From: Vallicoccus soli
GTDB taxonomy: Bacteria > Actinomycetota > Actinomycetes > Motilibacterales > Motilibacteraceae
Assembly: GCF_003594885.1 (NCBI RefSeq)
Contig: NZ_QZEZ01000001.1
Coordinates: 248,001-312,000, forward strand
Length of the DNA stretch: 64,000 bases
Reading direction: 5' to 3'
This document shows, piece by piece, positions 36,322-52,847 of the stretch. How positions within the stretch are numbered: the first letter of the stretch is position 1; each line of letters starts with the position of its first letter. The translations under genes were made by a program, and so were the position numbers. The notes beneath the pieces are model-generated. The model had not been told where the DNA came from, made no database searches, and saw only the letters and a program-made list of their open reading frames with translations.

Positions 36322-36337
36322 CGCGGGGGCCCTGGGC

Positions 36338-36343
36338 TACACT
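36338..36343 (+). promoter_or_regulatory. -10 box of tRNA-Thr
   Basis: TACACT, 12 nt before the mature tRNA 5' end. The gene thus has its own promoter just after holB. Confidence 0.55.
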
Positions 36344-36355
36344 CCTCGGGCGCAC

Positions 36356-36429
36356 GCCGCCTTAGCTCAGTCGGCTAGAGCGACGCACTCGTAATGCGTA
36401 GGTCGTCGGTTCGATTCCGACAGGCGGCT
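36356..36429 (+). tRNA. tRNA-Thr, anticodon CGT
   Basis: 74 nt forming a full cloverleaf: acceptor GCCGCCT/AGGCGGC, D arm GCTC...GAGC, anticodon stem ACGCA/TGCGT with loop CTCGTAA (anticodon CGT, reads ACG), T arm GTCGG-TTCGATT-CCGAC, discriminator T. CCA is not encoded. Confidence 0.97.
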
Positions 36430-36434
36430 CGACC

Positions 36435-36480
36435 AGGAGGGGCCCTCGCCCGGCGGTGACGCCGGGCGGGGGCCCCTCCT
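36435..36480 (+). terminator. Strong hairpin after tRNA-Thr
   Basis: About 20-bp stem from AGGAGGGGCCC (36435) to its complement ending at 36480, with a GTGA loop. It also faces the 3' end of the TetR gene and may serve both strands. Confidence 0.8.
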
Positions 36481-36498
36481 GCGCGTGTGGCGGGCGTG

Positions 36499-37143
36499 TC
36501 AGGGACGGCACAGGGCCGCGGCGAGCCGTCCCGTCGCCGCCGCCAGGTCGGGCAGCGGCCTCCCGTCGCCGAGCCAGTGCCGCACCTGCTCGGCGCTGAG
36601 CGCGGCGAGGAGGGCCTCGGCTCGGGTGCCGGGGTCCGGTGCGCCGGCCTCCGTGAGCAGCAGCGCGCAGTGCTGGCGCCACAGGGCGTACGCGGGTCCG
36701 CGCAGCCGCCCGCCCGGCGTGGCGGTCTCGGACATCAGCACGAGGTCGAGGTGCGCCGCCTGGAACGCGAGGTAGGCCTCGGTGAACGCGACCAGCCTCC
36801 GTGCCGGAGGGGCGCCCGGGCCGAGGGGGGCGGGGCCGCGCACCATCTGCTCCTGCAGCTGGCGCCCCCGCTCGCTCAGCAGCGCCGCGGCGAGCCCGCC
36901 CTTGTCCCCGAACCGCCGGTAGAGCGTGCCCTTGCCGACGCCCGCGGCGGCGGCGACGTCGTCCATCGTCGTCGCGGCGACGCCCCGCTCCGCGAAGAGC
37001 GCCTCGGCCGCGGCGAGCACGCGGCGGCGGTTGCGCGCCGCGTCGGCGCGCTCGCGCACCACGGGCGCCGTGAGGAGCGCGAGGGCCTCCCCTTCCGCCC
37101 CCGTTGACGATCCGGACTCGGGTCCGCTACGTTCCTCGACCAT
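36499..37143 (-). CDS. TetR family regulator
   Basis: 214 residues. HTH in residues 28-75: RRVLAAAEALFAERGVAAT, then TMDDVAAAAGVGKGTLYRRF. A helical ligand domain fills the rest, with LVAFTEAYLAFQAAHLDLVL. ATG 37143 chosen: it lies just downstream of a palindrome (37149-37160); a longer frame continues but only as a shadow of the divergent gene. It probably controls that epimerase-like gene and itself. Similar proteins guard NAD(P)-binding or nitroreductase genes. Confidence 0.88.
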   Translation of the reverse strand: MVEERSGPESGSSTGAEGEALALLTAPVVRERADAARNRRRVLAAAEALFAERGVAATTMDDVAAAAGVGKGTLYRRFGDKGGLAAALLSERGRQLQEQMVRGPAPLGPGAPPARRLVAFTEAYLAFQAAHLDLVLMSETATPGGRLRGPAYALWRQHCALLLTEAGAPDPGTRAEALLAALSAEQVRHWLGDGRPLPDLAAATGRLAAALCRP

Positions 37144-37148
37144 GAACC

Positions 37149-37160
37149 GGACTGTAGTCC
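37149..37160. promoter_or_regulatory. Operator-like inverted repeat between TetR gene and epimerase
   Basis: GGACT-GT-AGTCC, 5 bp before the TetR start and 20 bp before the divergent ATG. A related palindrome, CGGAC-N4-GTCCG, occurs within the first TetR codons near 37112-37125. Confidence 0.5.
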
Positions 37161-37179
37161 ACATCGAGGGGAGTCGGGC

Positions 37180-38085: not shown

Positions 38086-38628
38086 TCAGTGCACCACGGC
38101 GTACGTGGACTGCACGAAGCCCGCCCCCAGGACGCTCGTCGACCGGTGCTCGAGCGCCACGTCGGCCTCGAGCGGGCCGAACAGGGGGAGGCCGGCGCCG
38201 AGCAGGACGGGGGCGGTGGTGATGGTGAGCTCCTGCACGAGCCCGGCGGCGAGGAACGAGCGGACCGCACCGCCGCCGTCCACGTACACCCGGCGCGCCC
38301 CCCGCGCGACGATCGCGTCGACGGCCTCCGGCACGTCCCGCACCACCTGCACCCGGGGGTCCGCACCGGCCTCGGCGCGCCGGCTGAGGACGAGCACGGT
38401 CCGCCCGTCGTAGGGCCAGGCGTCGAAGGTGAGGGCCTTCTCGTACGTGGCGCGGCCCATGACGAGGCAGTCGATCCCGGCGATGAAGGCGTCGTAGCCG
38501 GTCTCGCCGGCGTCGCGGCCGCGGCTGGTGAGCCAGTCGATGTCGCCGTCGGGGCGCGCGATGCACCCGTCGAGGCTCGTCGCGATGAAGACGCAGCCGG
38601 TGAACGGGCGGGGGGTGCGAGCGGTCAT
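38086..38628 (-). CDS. Dihydrofolate reductase family protein (RibD C-domain-like)
   Basis: 180 residues. FTGCVFIATSLDGCIARPDG at the start, VMGRATYEKALTF near 55, VYVDGGGAVRSFLAAGLVQE near 117 and TTAPVLLGAGLPLFG near 140 are the pattern of the DHFR-like YwjB/YyaP group, which are NADPH reductases of unknown substrate and not the folate enzyme proper. ATG overlaps the stop of the TetR gene (ATGA), so the pair is one operon under the tandem operators at 39263-39290. Confidence 0.9.
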   Translation of the reverse strand: MTARTPRPFTGCVFIATSLDGCIARPDGDIDWLTSRGRDAGETGYDAFIAGIDCLVMGRATYEKALTFDAWPYDGRTVLVLSRRAEAGADPRVQVVRDVPEAVDAIVARGARRVYVDGGGAVRSFLAAGLVQELTITTAPVLLGAGLPLFGPLEADVALEHRSTSVLGAGFVQSTYAVVH

Positions 38629-39242
38629 CCACGGCCTCCAGGGGGCGGGGTCGGACGGTCGGTGCGGTGCGGGAGGAGCACGGCGTCGAGCGCCGCGTGC
38701 AGCTCCTCGGGCAGGGGGGCGCGGCCCACGAGGGGCCAGAGGACGAGGGCGCCGTTGTAGGCGACGTAGAGGGAGCGGGCGAGCGCCCCGGTGTCGGTGC
38801 CAGGGGACAGGTCGCCCTCCTGCACCGCCTCGGCGAGCAGGCCGGCGATCTCCGCCTCGGTGCGCAGGGCGTTCGCGGTGGCGTGGCGGCGGAAGTCCTC
38901 GTCGCGCAGGTCGAGCAGCAGGAAGCCGAGGTCGTTGGCGAGCTCGTCGCGCCCGTCCAGGTCCGCGACGAGCGCGCCGAGGGCTCCGTGCAGCGCGTCG
39001 AGCGCCGAGGCGGCGTGCGCGCGGCTGCCGGCGAAGCACGCCGCCGTGGCCTCCTCCGCGCGCTCCGAGAACGCGAGCAGCAGGGCGCGCTTCGAGCCGA
39101 ACCGCTGGACGAGGCCGGAGGCGGACAGGCCGGCCTCGCGCGCCACGGCCGCCAGCGTGGTGCCGGCAGGGCCGTGCCGGCGGACCACGCGGGCCGTCGC
39201 GGCGAAGACCTCGTCGTCGCTCGTCGTGCGCGGGCGCGCCAC
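38625..39242 (-). CDS. TetR family regulator of the DHFR-like gene
   Basis: 205 residues. HTH in the first 50: ARVVRRHGPAGTTLAAVARE, then AGLSASGLVQRFGSKRALLL. The helical C-terminal half is typical. GTG start at 39242, 20 bp downstream of two back-to-back 14-bp palindromes, so it probably represses its own operon with the DHFR-like enzyme. Ends in a Pro/Gly tail. Confidence 0.88.
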   Translation of the reverse strand: MARPRTTSDDEVFAATARVVRRHGPAGTTLAAVAREAGLSASGLVQRFGSKRALLLAFSERAEEATAACFAGSRAHAASALDALHGALGALVADLDGRDELANDLGFLLLDLRDEDFRRHATANALRTEAEIAGLLAEAVQEGDLSPGTDTGALARSLYVAYNGALVLWPLVGRAPLPEELHAALDAVLLPHRTDRPTPPPGGRG

Positions 39243-39262
39243 ACCGCCTCCTCGGGTCGCCA

Positions 39263-39290
39263 GTTCGTTAACGAACGTACGTTAACGAAC
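39263..39290. promoter_or_regulatory. Two adjacent 14-bp palindromic operators
   Basis: GTTCGTTAACGAAC (39263-39276) is a perfect palindrome; GTACGTTAACGAAC (39277-39290) follows with no gap and one mismatched pair. They are the only AT-rich spot for kilobases and lie directly before the TetR/DHFR-like operon. Confidence 0.8.
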
Positions 39291-39349
39291 CGGCGCCCGT
39301 CAACGTGGTGCTGCGCGCCTCCTGCCGCGGCGGCCCCGGGAGCGCGAGG

Positions 39350-40489
39350 TCAGCCGAGCAGCGCGCGCACCTGCGCGACGAGCGCCTCCCGGTCGGGGCG
39401 CGCCCAGGTCGCCGCGGCGACGACCCCGACCGCCGCTGCCGCCGGGTCGGGCGACCCGGCGGCGAGCAGCGCGCCGACGGCCGACGCGGCCGGGTCGACG
39501 GCGGGGTGCTCGGGCTCGGGGGCCGTGGCGTCGAGCACCCTGGCGGTCCCCACGGCCCGGACCTCCCGCACCTCCGCGTGCAGCGGCCCGGGGTAGGCCC
39601 AGGCGTAGGCGGCCGCGTGGTCGTCGAAGGGCGGGGGGACCGGCCGGCCCGCGCGCAGCGCGTCCAGCGCGGCGACGACCTCCGGTGCCCCGTCGAGCCC
39701 GGCCCGGGCGCAGGCGCCCCGGGACACCTCGAGCGCCACCGCCCGCTGCACCGCGGCCGGCGCGGCCGCCAGGTCCTCGGCGAGCCGCCGGTCCCAGCGC
39801 CCCAGCGCGGCGGCCTGGTCGCCGGCGCGGCGCAGGGCGTCGCTCGGCGGCACCTCGCCCCACTGCAGGCGCTCGAGGAACGCGTCACGCGCGTCGTGGC
39901 CGAGCCGCAGCTCCTCCGGCTCGCCCGTCAGCGCCGCGTCGCGCTCCTCCCGGGCGGGTGGCGGCGGGGTGCGGCGCGCCTCGTCGTGCCAGTACTGCGC
40001 TGCCCGGCTCCCGACCCGCAGCACGGCGTCGGGCGCGGGCGGTGCGGGCCACAGCTGCAGGAGGTACCGGTCCGGGGCCGGCTCCCCCTCGAGCCGCGTG
40101 TCCTGCTCCTGGGCGGTGTCCATGCCGGAGGCGCACCACCGGACCCGCAGGCCCTGGGTACCGGGCAGCGTGAAGCCCTCCCAGTCCTGGAAGGTCACGA
40201 GCGCGACATCGGCCTGGACGGGCGCGTACGAGACCTCCACGACGTCCTCCCACCCGCCGTCGTCCGGCGGCTCCTCGTCGTGCGCCTCGATGCGCAGCGG
40301 CACGGGCCCCGAGTGCAGCCCGGTCACGAAGCTGAGCGTCCCGGGGTGCCGGGCGCCCACCAGCCCGTTGGCCTGACCGCCGGCTGCTCCGGCGAGGTCG
40401 TCGGCGTGGTCGTGGTCCGCGGGGACGAGGTGGATGGAGCGGTAGGAGACCGGCAGCTCGCCGTCGAAGAGCACCTGCACGAGGGGCAC
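39350..40489 (-). CDS. Conserved actinobacterial hypothetical protein
   Basis: 379 residues. The first 160 residues match a widespread actinobacterial family of unknown role that I recall by VLFDGELPVSYRSIHLVP, GQANGLVGA, TGLHSGPVPLRIEAHD and RYLLQLWPAPPAPDAVLR. It looks like a beta-rich domain followed by a helical segment (AAQYWHDEARR). Residues 180-379 are Ala-rich and helical with HEAT-like character. No signal peptide or membrane segment. It is bounded by the operator region on one side and the repeat cluster on the other. ATG start; ribosome site GAGAG. Confidence 0.75.
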   Translation of the reverse strand: MPLVQVLFDGELPVSYRSIHLVPADHDHADDLAGAAGGQANGLVGARHPGTLSFVTGLHSGPVPLRIEAHDEEPPDDGGWEDVVEVSYAPVQADVALVTFQDWEGFTLPGTQGLRVRWCASGMDTAQEQDTRLEGEPAPDRYLLQLWPAPPAPDAVLRVGSRAAQYWHDEARRTPPPPAREERDAALTGEPEELRLGHDARDAFLERLQWGEVPPSDALRRAGDQAAALGRWDRRLAEDLAAAPAAVQRAVALEVSRGACARAGLDGAPEVVAALDALRAGRPVPPPFDDHAAAYAWAYPGPLHAEVREVRAVGTARVLDATAPEPEHPAVDPAASAVGALLAAGSPDPAAAAVGVVAAATWARPDREALVAQVRALLG

Positions 40490-40608
40490 TCTCGCGCAGT
40501 CCGGCCGCGAGGGCTACCGCTGCACGCGTCGCCGCCGCTGCGCTCCGTGTCGGTCGGCACCCTCTCCGGTCGCATCCGCGGTCCCGCGTCCCGGTGCTGC
40601 ACCTCCCG

Positions 40609-41072
40609 CCGCGATCATGCGCGGATGGCGCGGCGGTGCCGGTGCCGCCGCGCGCCGAGCCCGCCGTGGTGCGCGCGCCGCAACTTCCCGCCGCGGTCAT
40701 GCGCGGATGGCGCGGCGGTGCCGGAGCCGCCCTCGGCGCGCTCCCCGTCCGGCGCGGGGAGCGCGGGCAGCGCGCCATCCGCGCATGATCGTGGGAGGGA
40801 GGGGTCCGCGTGGGCGGCGGTAGCCCGCCTCTGCGCCCGCGCGGAGCCCCGTCCCTCCCGGTCGAGCGGCCGCGGGGCGAGCCCGCCGCTGCTATGCGTG
40901 CTGCAGGTCCTGCCGCGATCATGCGCGGATGGCGCGGACGGCGCTGCAGTACCGGTGGCGCCGTCCGCGCATGATCGCGGCGGTGGGTGGGTGGTGCCCG
41001 GCTCGTGCCGACCGCGACGGGCGCGGGCGACGCCGGCGACGCCAGCCCGCCATGTGCGCATGATCGCGGCGG
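40609..41072. repeat. Cluster of six inverted/direct REP-like repeats in a 645-bp gene-free stretch
   Basis: The region 40490-41134 has no credible gene. It contains six copies of a 20-25 bp motif with core GATCATGCGCGGATGGCGC: plus orientation at 40609-40633, 40691-40715 (one change) and 40913-40937; minus at 40772-40793, 40957-40981 and 41050-41072. The third plus and second minus copies face each other and can form a long hairpin. The spacers differ and the copies are not evenly spaced. Confidence 0.8.
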
Positions 41073-41134
41073 GGAGGGGGGGAGCGCAGGGGACCGCGTC
41101 CCGCCGAGCCGCGCCCTCGGTCGGCGCGGCGACG

Positions 41135-42148
41135 TCAGCGCAGCAGGAGCGCGCTGTCCCCGAACTCGTGCCAGAGGTACCCCTCGCGCAGTGCGGACGC
41201 GTAGGCCGCGGCGACGCGCTCGGGCCCGACGACGGCCTCGAGCAGGGACAGGTGCGAGGCGCCCGGGGCGTGCCAGCCGGTGACGAGGCCGTCGACGACG
41301 CGGGCCGGGCGGTCGGGGCCGAGCACCAGGTCCGTCCAGCCCGCCGAGGGCGCGACGGTGCCCGTGCCCGCGGCGGCCGTCTCCAGGGCGCGTACGACGG
41401 TGGTGCCCACGGCGACGACGCGGCCGCCGGCGGCGCGGGTGGTCGCGACGAGGCGGGCGGTGGCGGGCGGGACGGCGTACCGCTCGGGCAGCGCCCCCTC
41501 GCCCTCCTCGAGCGAGGACACCCCGCAGTGCAGGACCACCGGGGCGACCGCGACGCCGTCGGCGACGAGCTCCGTCACGAGCTCCGGCGTGAAGGGCCGC
41601 GCCGCGCTCGGCATCTCGGCGCTGCCGGGCACCCGCGCGAAGGCGGTCTGGTAGGCCGACAGCGGCCAGCGCCCCTCGACGTACGCGTAGCTGACCGGCC
41701 GGCCGTGCCGCCGCATGACCTCCTCGGCGCCGCCGCGCGCGGTCACCGCCGCCTGCCACAGCCGCCCGTGCGGGGCGCCGAGGTGCAGCGCCGCCGGCCC
41801 GGGCAGGTCGACGCGGGCGCCGGCCAGGTCGCCGCCCAGCGGGCCGGTCGCCCGGCCCGGCGGGCGCACCTCGACGAGCCAGGTGCCGTCGTCGCGCCGC
41901 GTCGACAGGTGCACCGTGACCGGGCGCCCGTCGAGGGTCCCGTCGACCGCGGCGGGCAGCGTCGCCGACGTGTTGACGACGAGCAGGTCGCCGGGGCGCA
42001 GCACCTCGCCGATCTCGTGGAAAGCGCGGTGCCGCAGGCCCTGCCCGTCGGCGACGAGGAGCCGTACGCCGTCGCGCGGGACGCCGCGCACCTCCGGCGG
42101 CACCGTGGCGCTGAGGGCCGCGGGGAGCTCGAAGCGGAGGGCGCTCAC
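41135..42148 (-). CDS. queA: S-adenosylmethionine:tRNA ribosyltransferase-isomerase (QueA-like)
   Basis: 337 residues. QueA transfers and rearranges the ribosyl part of SAM onto preQ1 in tRNA to make epoxyqueuosine. Family landmarks: LRPGDLLVVNTSATLPAAVDG (usual NDTRVIPAR is NTSATLPAA), SAEMPSAARPFT, and HLSLLEAVVG near the end. GTG 42148 chosen because of the 4-bp overlap with the SDR gene; the frame upstream is a shadow. No other queuosine gene is nearby, and the variant motifs suggest the divergent actinobacterial branch, whose product may differ. Confidence 0.83.
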   Translation of the reverse strand: MSALRFELPAALSATVPPEVRGVPRDGVRLLVADGQGLRHRAFHEIGEVLRPGDLLVVNTSATLPAAVDGTLDGRPVTVHLSTRRDDGTWLVEVRPPGRATGPLGGDLAGARVDLPGPAALHLGAPHGRLWQAAVTARGGAEEVMRRHGRPVSYAYVEGRWPLSAYQTAFARVPGSAEMPSAARPFTPELVTELVADGVAVAPVVLHCGVSSLEEGEGALPERYAVPPATARLVATTRAAGGRVVAVGTTVVRALETAAAGTGTVAPSAGWTDLVLGPDRPARVVDGLVTGWHAPGASHLSLLEAVVGPERVAAAYASALREGYLWHEFGDSALLLR

Positions 42149-52713: not shown

Positions 52714-52847
52714 GGCGAGCAGGCTAGCGCCGGCGGGGGACGGCGGGCGTGGGGGCGGTGACCATGCCGGGATGGCCCGGAGGATGGCCCGCACGGGTCA
52801 TGCGCGCGGGCGCGGGGCGTTCCTATCCTGGCGGGCAGACGACGGGG

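Follow-up and report, generated by a model that had tools for sequence, protein, structure and literature searches.

A cluster of REP-like inverted repeats downstream of a queA-like gene in Vallicoccus soli belongs to a dispersed, GATCATG-tagged repeat family

The window analyzed here is a 64,000-nucleotide stretch of the Vallicoccus soli genome (contig NZ_QZEZ01000001.1, positions 248,001 to 312,000), in which a cluster of six inverted repeats lies between two minus-strand genes, downstream of the stop codon of a queA-like gene (Table 1). A preliminary description of this DNA had reported three plus and three minus copies of a 16-nucleotide core, and a core search recovered all six. A seventh match in the window, at position 52760, carries three mismatches and is compatible with chance. 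Dinucleotide shuffles (n = 100) gave an expectation of 0.67 core matches per window and never yielded seven or more, which rules out both chance and plain G+C richness as the source of the six copies. The spacers, previously described as resembling Pro/Arg codons, are what is expected from DNA of 80% G+C and need no explanation. Nor is this quite the only long gene-free stretch, as had been stated: at 645 bp, it is shorter than a gap of 858 bp at 36322–37179, where an earlier training of the same crude gene caller had placed a 564-bp gene. None of six neighboring proteins scanned is a transposase, as already noted in that description. A separate feature of the neighborhood is a near-perfect, A+T-richer palindrome (39258–39295) just upstream of a TetR-like gene (38625–39242); it is perhaps a candidate operator of this regulator.

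Table 1. Positions, strands, and core matches of features in and around the repeat cluster (window coordinates)
Feature	Positions	Strand	Core (mismatches)	Remarks
379-aa gene, downstream of the cluster	39350–40489	−		no Pfam family
Intergenic region with the cluster, flanked by two minus-strand genes	40490–41134			own gene calls; 645 bp
Copy 1, half-element	40601–40650	+	40613–40628 (exact)	94% identity with copy 2 over 49 nt
Complete dimer, copies 2 (+) and 3 (−)	40683–40800		40695–40710 (1, GGTC); 40775–40790 (exact)	hairpin z = −6.2; relatives elsewhere
Short dimer, copies 4 (+) and 5 (−)	40905–40985		40917–40932 (exact); 40961–40976 (1)	hairpin z = −8.0
Copy 6, half-element	41048–41080	−	41050–41065 (2)	core search
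queA-like gene	41135–42148	−		Queuosine_synth, PF02547, E = 7.3e-71

The proposal that copies pair into hairpins holds for copies 2/3 and 4/5, which form long hairpins that none of 200 shuffles equaled in stability, but not for copies 1 and 6, which gave no stable fold when each was folded alone (z = 0.7 and 0.05). Folded as RNA of the queA strand, the entire cluster region reached z = −9.8 (20 shuffles). Copies 2 and 3 are arranged tail to tail, separated by a G+C-rich spacer; the spacer of copies 4/5 is shorter and different. Because of its identity to copy 2, copy 1 is probably a local duplicate, and it also has dispersed relatives at other loci. A mini-hairpin formed by a single core was considered and found to be unsupported: among single cores of the V. 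soli genome, positions −1 and 8 do not covary (CG 71, CA 41, TG 31, TA 30; n = 177), and the 20- to 40-bp stem-loop per unit with compensatory stem changes that characterizes tagged REPs was not seen in them.

The complete dimer is a dispersed unit. Relatives of positions 40683–40800 were found at four other loci, L149 (79% identity over 123 bp), L139 (80% over 109 bp), L174 (74% over 109 bp), and L186 (73% over 109 bp). The spacer is common to these separate loci, so the dimer was copied as one unit; the core is more conserved than the spacer. The dimers of L139 and L174 are not independent, because both sit in a common segment of 296 bp with 94% identity (approximately 2818–3113 in L139 and 3195–3488 in L174), which is a larger duplication that took the dimer along. 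We take the surroundings of these two dimers to resemble a decayed HNH/DUF222-type (13E12-type) gene, a reading that Pfam searches of the surroundings left unconfirmed. The 118-bp dimer had no match in plasmid and phage records.

Counting the core across the genome showed that it is not confined to this spot. V. soli holds 11 exact copies of the 16-mer, 104 copies of the 10-mer GATCATGCGC (approximately 5 expected from base composition), and 221 copies of CSSYGATCATGC; the 16-mer represents one subtype only, and the core of the whole family is CSSYGATCATGC. The 10-mer occurs 6 to 62 times each in 39 other genomes of up to 9.2 Mb. A unique local regulatory site, which had been the alternative if the core were restricted to one place, is thus ruled out by the genome-wide copies. 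At least 119 stretches from other species match the 16-mer; since the 80 matches listed are single and scattered over many phyla, they were taken as chance, although near relatives may be missing among them. The cluster belongs to no known Rfam family, the best match (E = 0.025) falling far below the gathering score.

To describe the elements themselves, 57 sequences of the V. soli genome (398 kb, window included) were surveyed. A sequence logo built from 101 sites of class A and 72 of class B gave GATCATGC as the conserved tag. Class A sites consist of a C-rich 5′ flank, the core, and a tail ending in (R)TGGCG, while class B sites form direct arrays with a 22-bp period and CCCCGGC spacers. 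Cores are thus found singly, in inverted pairs, and in direct arrays with a 22-bp step, and since clusters in this genome range from 1 to 20 sites, the six copies in the window are not exceptional. Within 200 bp, 168 pairs of adjacent sites were counted: 22 tail to tail, 21 head to head, and 125 direct. This excess of direct over inverted pairs counts against the REP/BIME-like reading of the family. Dispersal is evident from the dimer homologues at four other loci, and local amplification, one of the processes proposed in the preliminary description, from the 22-bp arrays. Two further observations concern these arrays. At L184 (2657–3069; V. soli contig C9), the same core forms a 22-bp tandem array of 18.8 copies with 99% matches, likely a variable-number locus. 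Contig C2 and contig C3 break within one common repeat (the last ∼330 bases of L151 and L158) directly beside GATCATG arrays; a 25-base probe from these ends was found in L151 and L158 only, among the loci compared, and the sequence past the breaks may include a longer repeated element.

The exact spacing of 22 bp in 85 of the 125 direct neighbors could also reflect binding-site arrays, in which a putative nucleoid or segregation protein would read YGATCATGCR at intervals of approximately two helical turns, and hence on one face of the helix. The long, nearly uniform L184 array and the conservation of the core beyond the spacer in dimers fit such a protein, but slippage too yields 22-bp arrays at 99% identity, the direct arrays of G004 (another genus of the same family) often have a period of 34 bp, the window keeps no period, and there is no candidate protein. 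We regard this explanation as highly improbable.

The position of the elements relative to genes was assessed with gene calls from our own simple codon-score caller, on loci that, except for the window, were picked for containing sites. In V. soli, GATCATG (either strand) occurs 9.50 times per kb of convergent, 1.75 times per kb of tandem, and 1.56 times per kb of divergent intergenic DNA, and the same order was found in all seven genomes sampled (V. soli, G004, G023, G123, G033, G009, and G097). In V. soli, 133 of 161 sites have a 3′ end as their closest gene boundary; the corresponding counts are 68 of 79 (G004), 43 of 53 (G023), and 50 of 67 (G123). In the 57 V. soli sequences, whose loci were picked for the 10-mer, GATCATGC is intergenic in 186 of 195 cases. 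The V. soli elements therefore have the high copy number, extragenic location, and convergent or unidirectional 3′-end placement of tagged REPs.

Amplification of the core is lineage specific. CSSYGATCATGC occurs 221 times in V. soli and 273 times in G004 but only 14 times in G002, a congener of G004, and 32 and 55 times in two g2 genomes. In G004, the element is mainly CCCCGTGATCATGCA..TCCTGGG (20 loci), in tail-to-tail pairs and direct arrays. A shorter form, GATCATG-N10–40-CATGATC, occurs at least 10 times in 13 of 148 Actinomycetes genomes from five families (G004, G009, G023, G044, G061, G062, G076, G090, G097, G101, G123, G133, and G143); 32 of the 148 have none, and many of the low counts resemble coincidental matches or matches in coding sequence. 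V. soli itself has none of these short palindromes; the layout of its elements is therefore unlike that in the other families, and the link to them rests on the core and flank shared via G004. Inner stems vary by lineage and even inside one genome (G009 and G123) around a constant tag, although GATCATG was fixed by the search pattern and was the only heptamer surveyed; a control with the pattern reversed is weak because it contains CTAG, which is rare in many bacteria. Unity of the tag across the class is nevertheless likely. Palindromes collected de novo (144 kb of loci chosen by gene similarity in G149, G076, and G143) had a GATCAT head in one of nine cases, and in none of 10 and none of 13 in the other sets; the tagged form is therefore one palindrome type among several.

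Compensatory change was examined within the short palindromes, with G009 left out because its sequences were too few. In G023 (n = 17, 47 nt), 87.8% of inner pairs are kept, compared with a mean of 80.4 and a maximum of 84.9 in 200 shuffles, and 17 both-side changes were counted versus 3 to 6 in slid controls. Palindromes of G123 do not exceed shuffles (84.9 versus a mean of 82.2 and a maximum of 85.7), and those of G004, G033, and G097 pair no better than shuffles. The G023 result, together with the very stable hairpins and the marked 3′-end bias in each genome sampled, is what would be expected of host-functional 3′-end elements (bidirectional terminators, insulators, or mRNA-stabilizing hairpins) maintained by selection and multiplied by ordinary duplication, with no mobile system. 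However, the four other genomes do not show this pairing, no hairpin with the T-tract of an intrinsic terminator was found in positions 40400–41300, a long spacer common to unrelated loci requires copying, and copy number differs ∼20-fold between congeners. We therefore consider it rather unlikely that host function accounts for the elements.

Gains of palindromes could be followed only in genus g39, which is distant from the genus of V. soli, and not in V. soli itself. A G123 palindrome ∼20 nt past a stop codon is absent from this interval in all 10 congeners in which both flanks were retrieved (an eleventh had one flank only), and two more are missing from the corresponding position in both G076 and G143, G149 being uninformative for these because of larger gene differences. 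In total, three palindromes have no counterpart at any of the informative syntenic positions of sister species. The remaining two in the same 20-kb stretch of G123 allow no verdict, because the gene they flank is replaced or missing in congeners. Flanks of elements are not conserved between G004 and G002, G001, or V. soli. A related palindrome with GATCATC ends was observed in G149 (L383, in the 3′ portion of the interval that corresponds to L373 7430) and also at L374 1456; the one in L383 adjoins a gene missing from G123 at that place.

Like MITEs, the elements are small, noncoding, and dispersed, with inverted ends, and the ∼110-bp dimer could be a nonautonomous derivative that retains the ends of a conventional DDE insertion sequence whose inverted repeats contain GATCATG. 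The breaks of contigs C2 and C3 are such as a longer repeated element would cause. Against this, the single locus at which empty sites could be read (G123 versus G143 and G076, with diverged flanks) showed no target duplication, and no autonomous partner with both ends and a transposase was found, the genome-wide search having been for PF01797 only. A MITE-like origin is, in our judgment, quite improbable.

The movement of REP-like elements is generally attributed to RAYT transposases, and a RAYT search had been suggested for this genome. Profile searches for the Y1 transposase family (PF01797) gave no hit in the V. soli genome (98.6% complete); a control search was positive in 5 of 14 known genomes. 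PF01797 is present in 16 of 148 genomes and in none of the 13 palindrome-rich ones. This lack of overlap is not significant by itself, because only ∼1.4 overlaps are expected by chance, but it does suggest that the palindromes do not require Y1. According to one survey (PMC6006769), Actinobacteridae have only subclass 1.1 of these transposases, which we read as IS200-type, and no RAYT class. Inverted doublets, mosaic clusters, and 3′-end location are likenesses to REPIN/RAYT systems and BIMEs (TnpAREP), and the inverted doublets are present in V. soli; unlike those systems, V. soli and the 13 palindrome-rich genomes have no Y1 transposase.

The GTAG- and CGTC-tagged REPs are described by Di Nocera et al. 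(2013; PMC3733652) as short tagged palindromes of high copy number, extragenic and often in dimers of opposite orientation, mostly between convergent or unidirectional genes near stop codons, with the CGTC type also lacking a dedicated transposase. The elements studied here are likewise short, tagged, and palindromic, with high copy number, extragenic and 3′-end location, and opposite dimers. They differ in that the tag is GATCATG(C), neither GTAG nor CGTC appearing at a conserved position in the logo; in that the tag is paired at the stem base in the palindromes, whereas it is unpaired in those REPs; in the long-spacer dimers and 22-bp arrays of V. soli; and in their actinobacterial host, the strings “actinobact,” “Frankia,” and “Streptomyces” being absent from the main text of that paper. 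We recognized no description of such repeats in Actinobacteria in the open-access literature searched, subscription papers falling mostly outside this coverage. The likeness to REP/BIME elements seen in the preliminary description thus stands for the nonunique core, inverted pairs, and extragenic 3′-end location but not for membership in a known REP/RAYT system, and because defining features of those systems fail, we call the elements REP-like rather than REPs.

We think it likely that the cluster consists of RAYT-less REP/BIME-like elements, dispersed by an enzyme of another kind and then multiplied by local slippage. The core unit, a C-rich flank followed by SSYGATCATGC and RSNNRTGGCG, would spread through the genome as inverted dimers of ∼80 to 120 bp, and also as halves, and would settle or survive chiefly right downstream of genes, where duplication and slippage would multiply it on the spot (22-bp arrays). 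Downstream of queA, the window would then hold a complete dimer, a shortened one, and two half-elements. GATCATG would serve as the signal read by a putative trans-acting enzyme, and the mobilizing enzyme would not be of the RAYT kind. Once transcribed, the hairpins are candidate mRNA 3′-end structures that could plausibly stabilize queA mRNA or limit read-through into the 379-aa gene that follows.

More tentatively, Actinomycetes may harbor a third superfamily of tagged palindromes, with GATCATG ends, stems that vary by lineage, and a non-Y1/RAYT enzyme, of which the window would be an outlying long-spacer form. If so, abundant and recently gained tagged palindromes in Actinomycetes would represent a second route for making REP-like repeats, and the GATCATG ends would provide a concrete search image for finding the enzyme. 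Classical T-tract terminators are rare in high-G+C genomes, for which these elements would be natural 3′-end hairpins.
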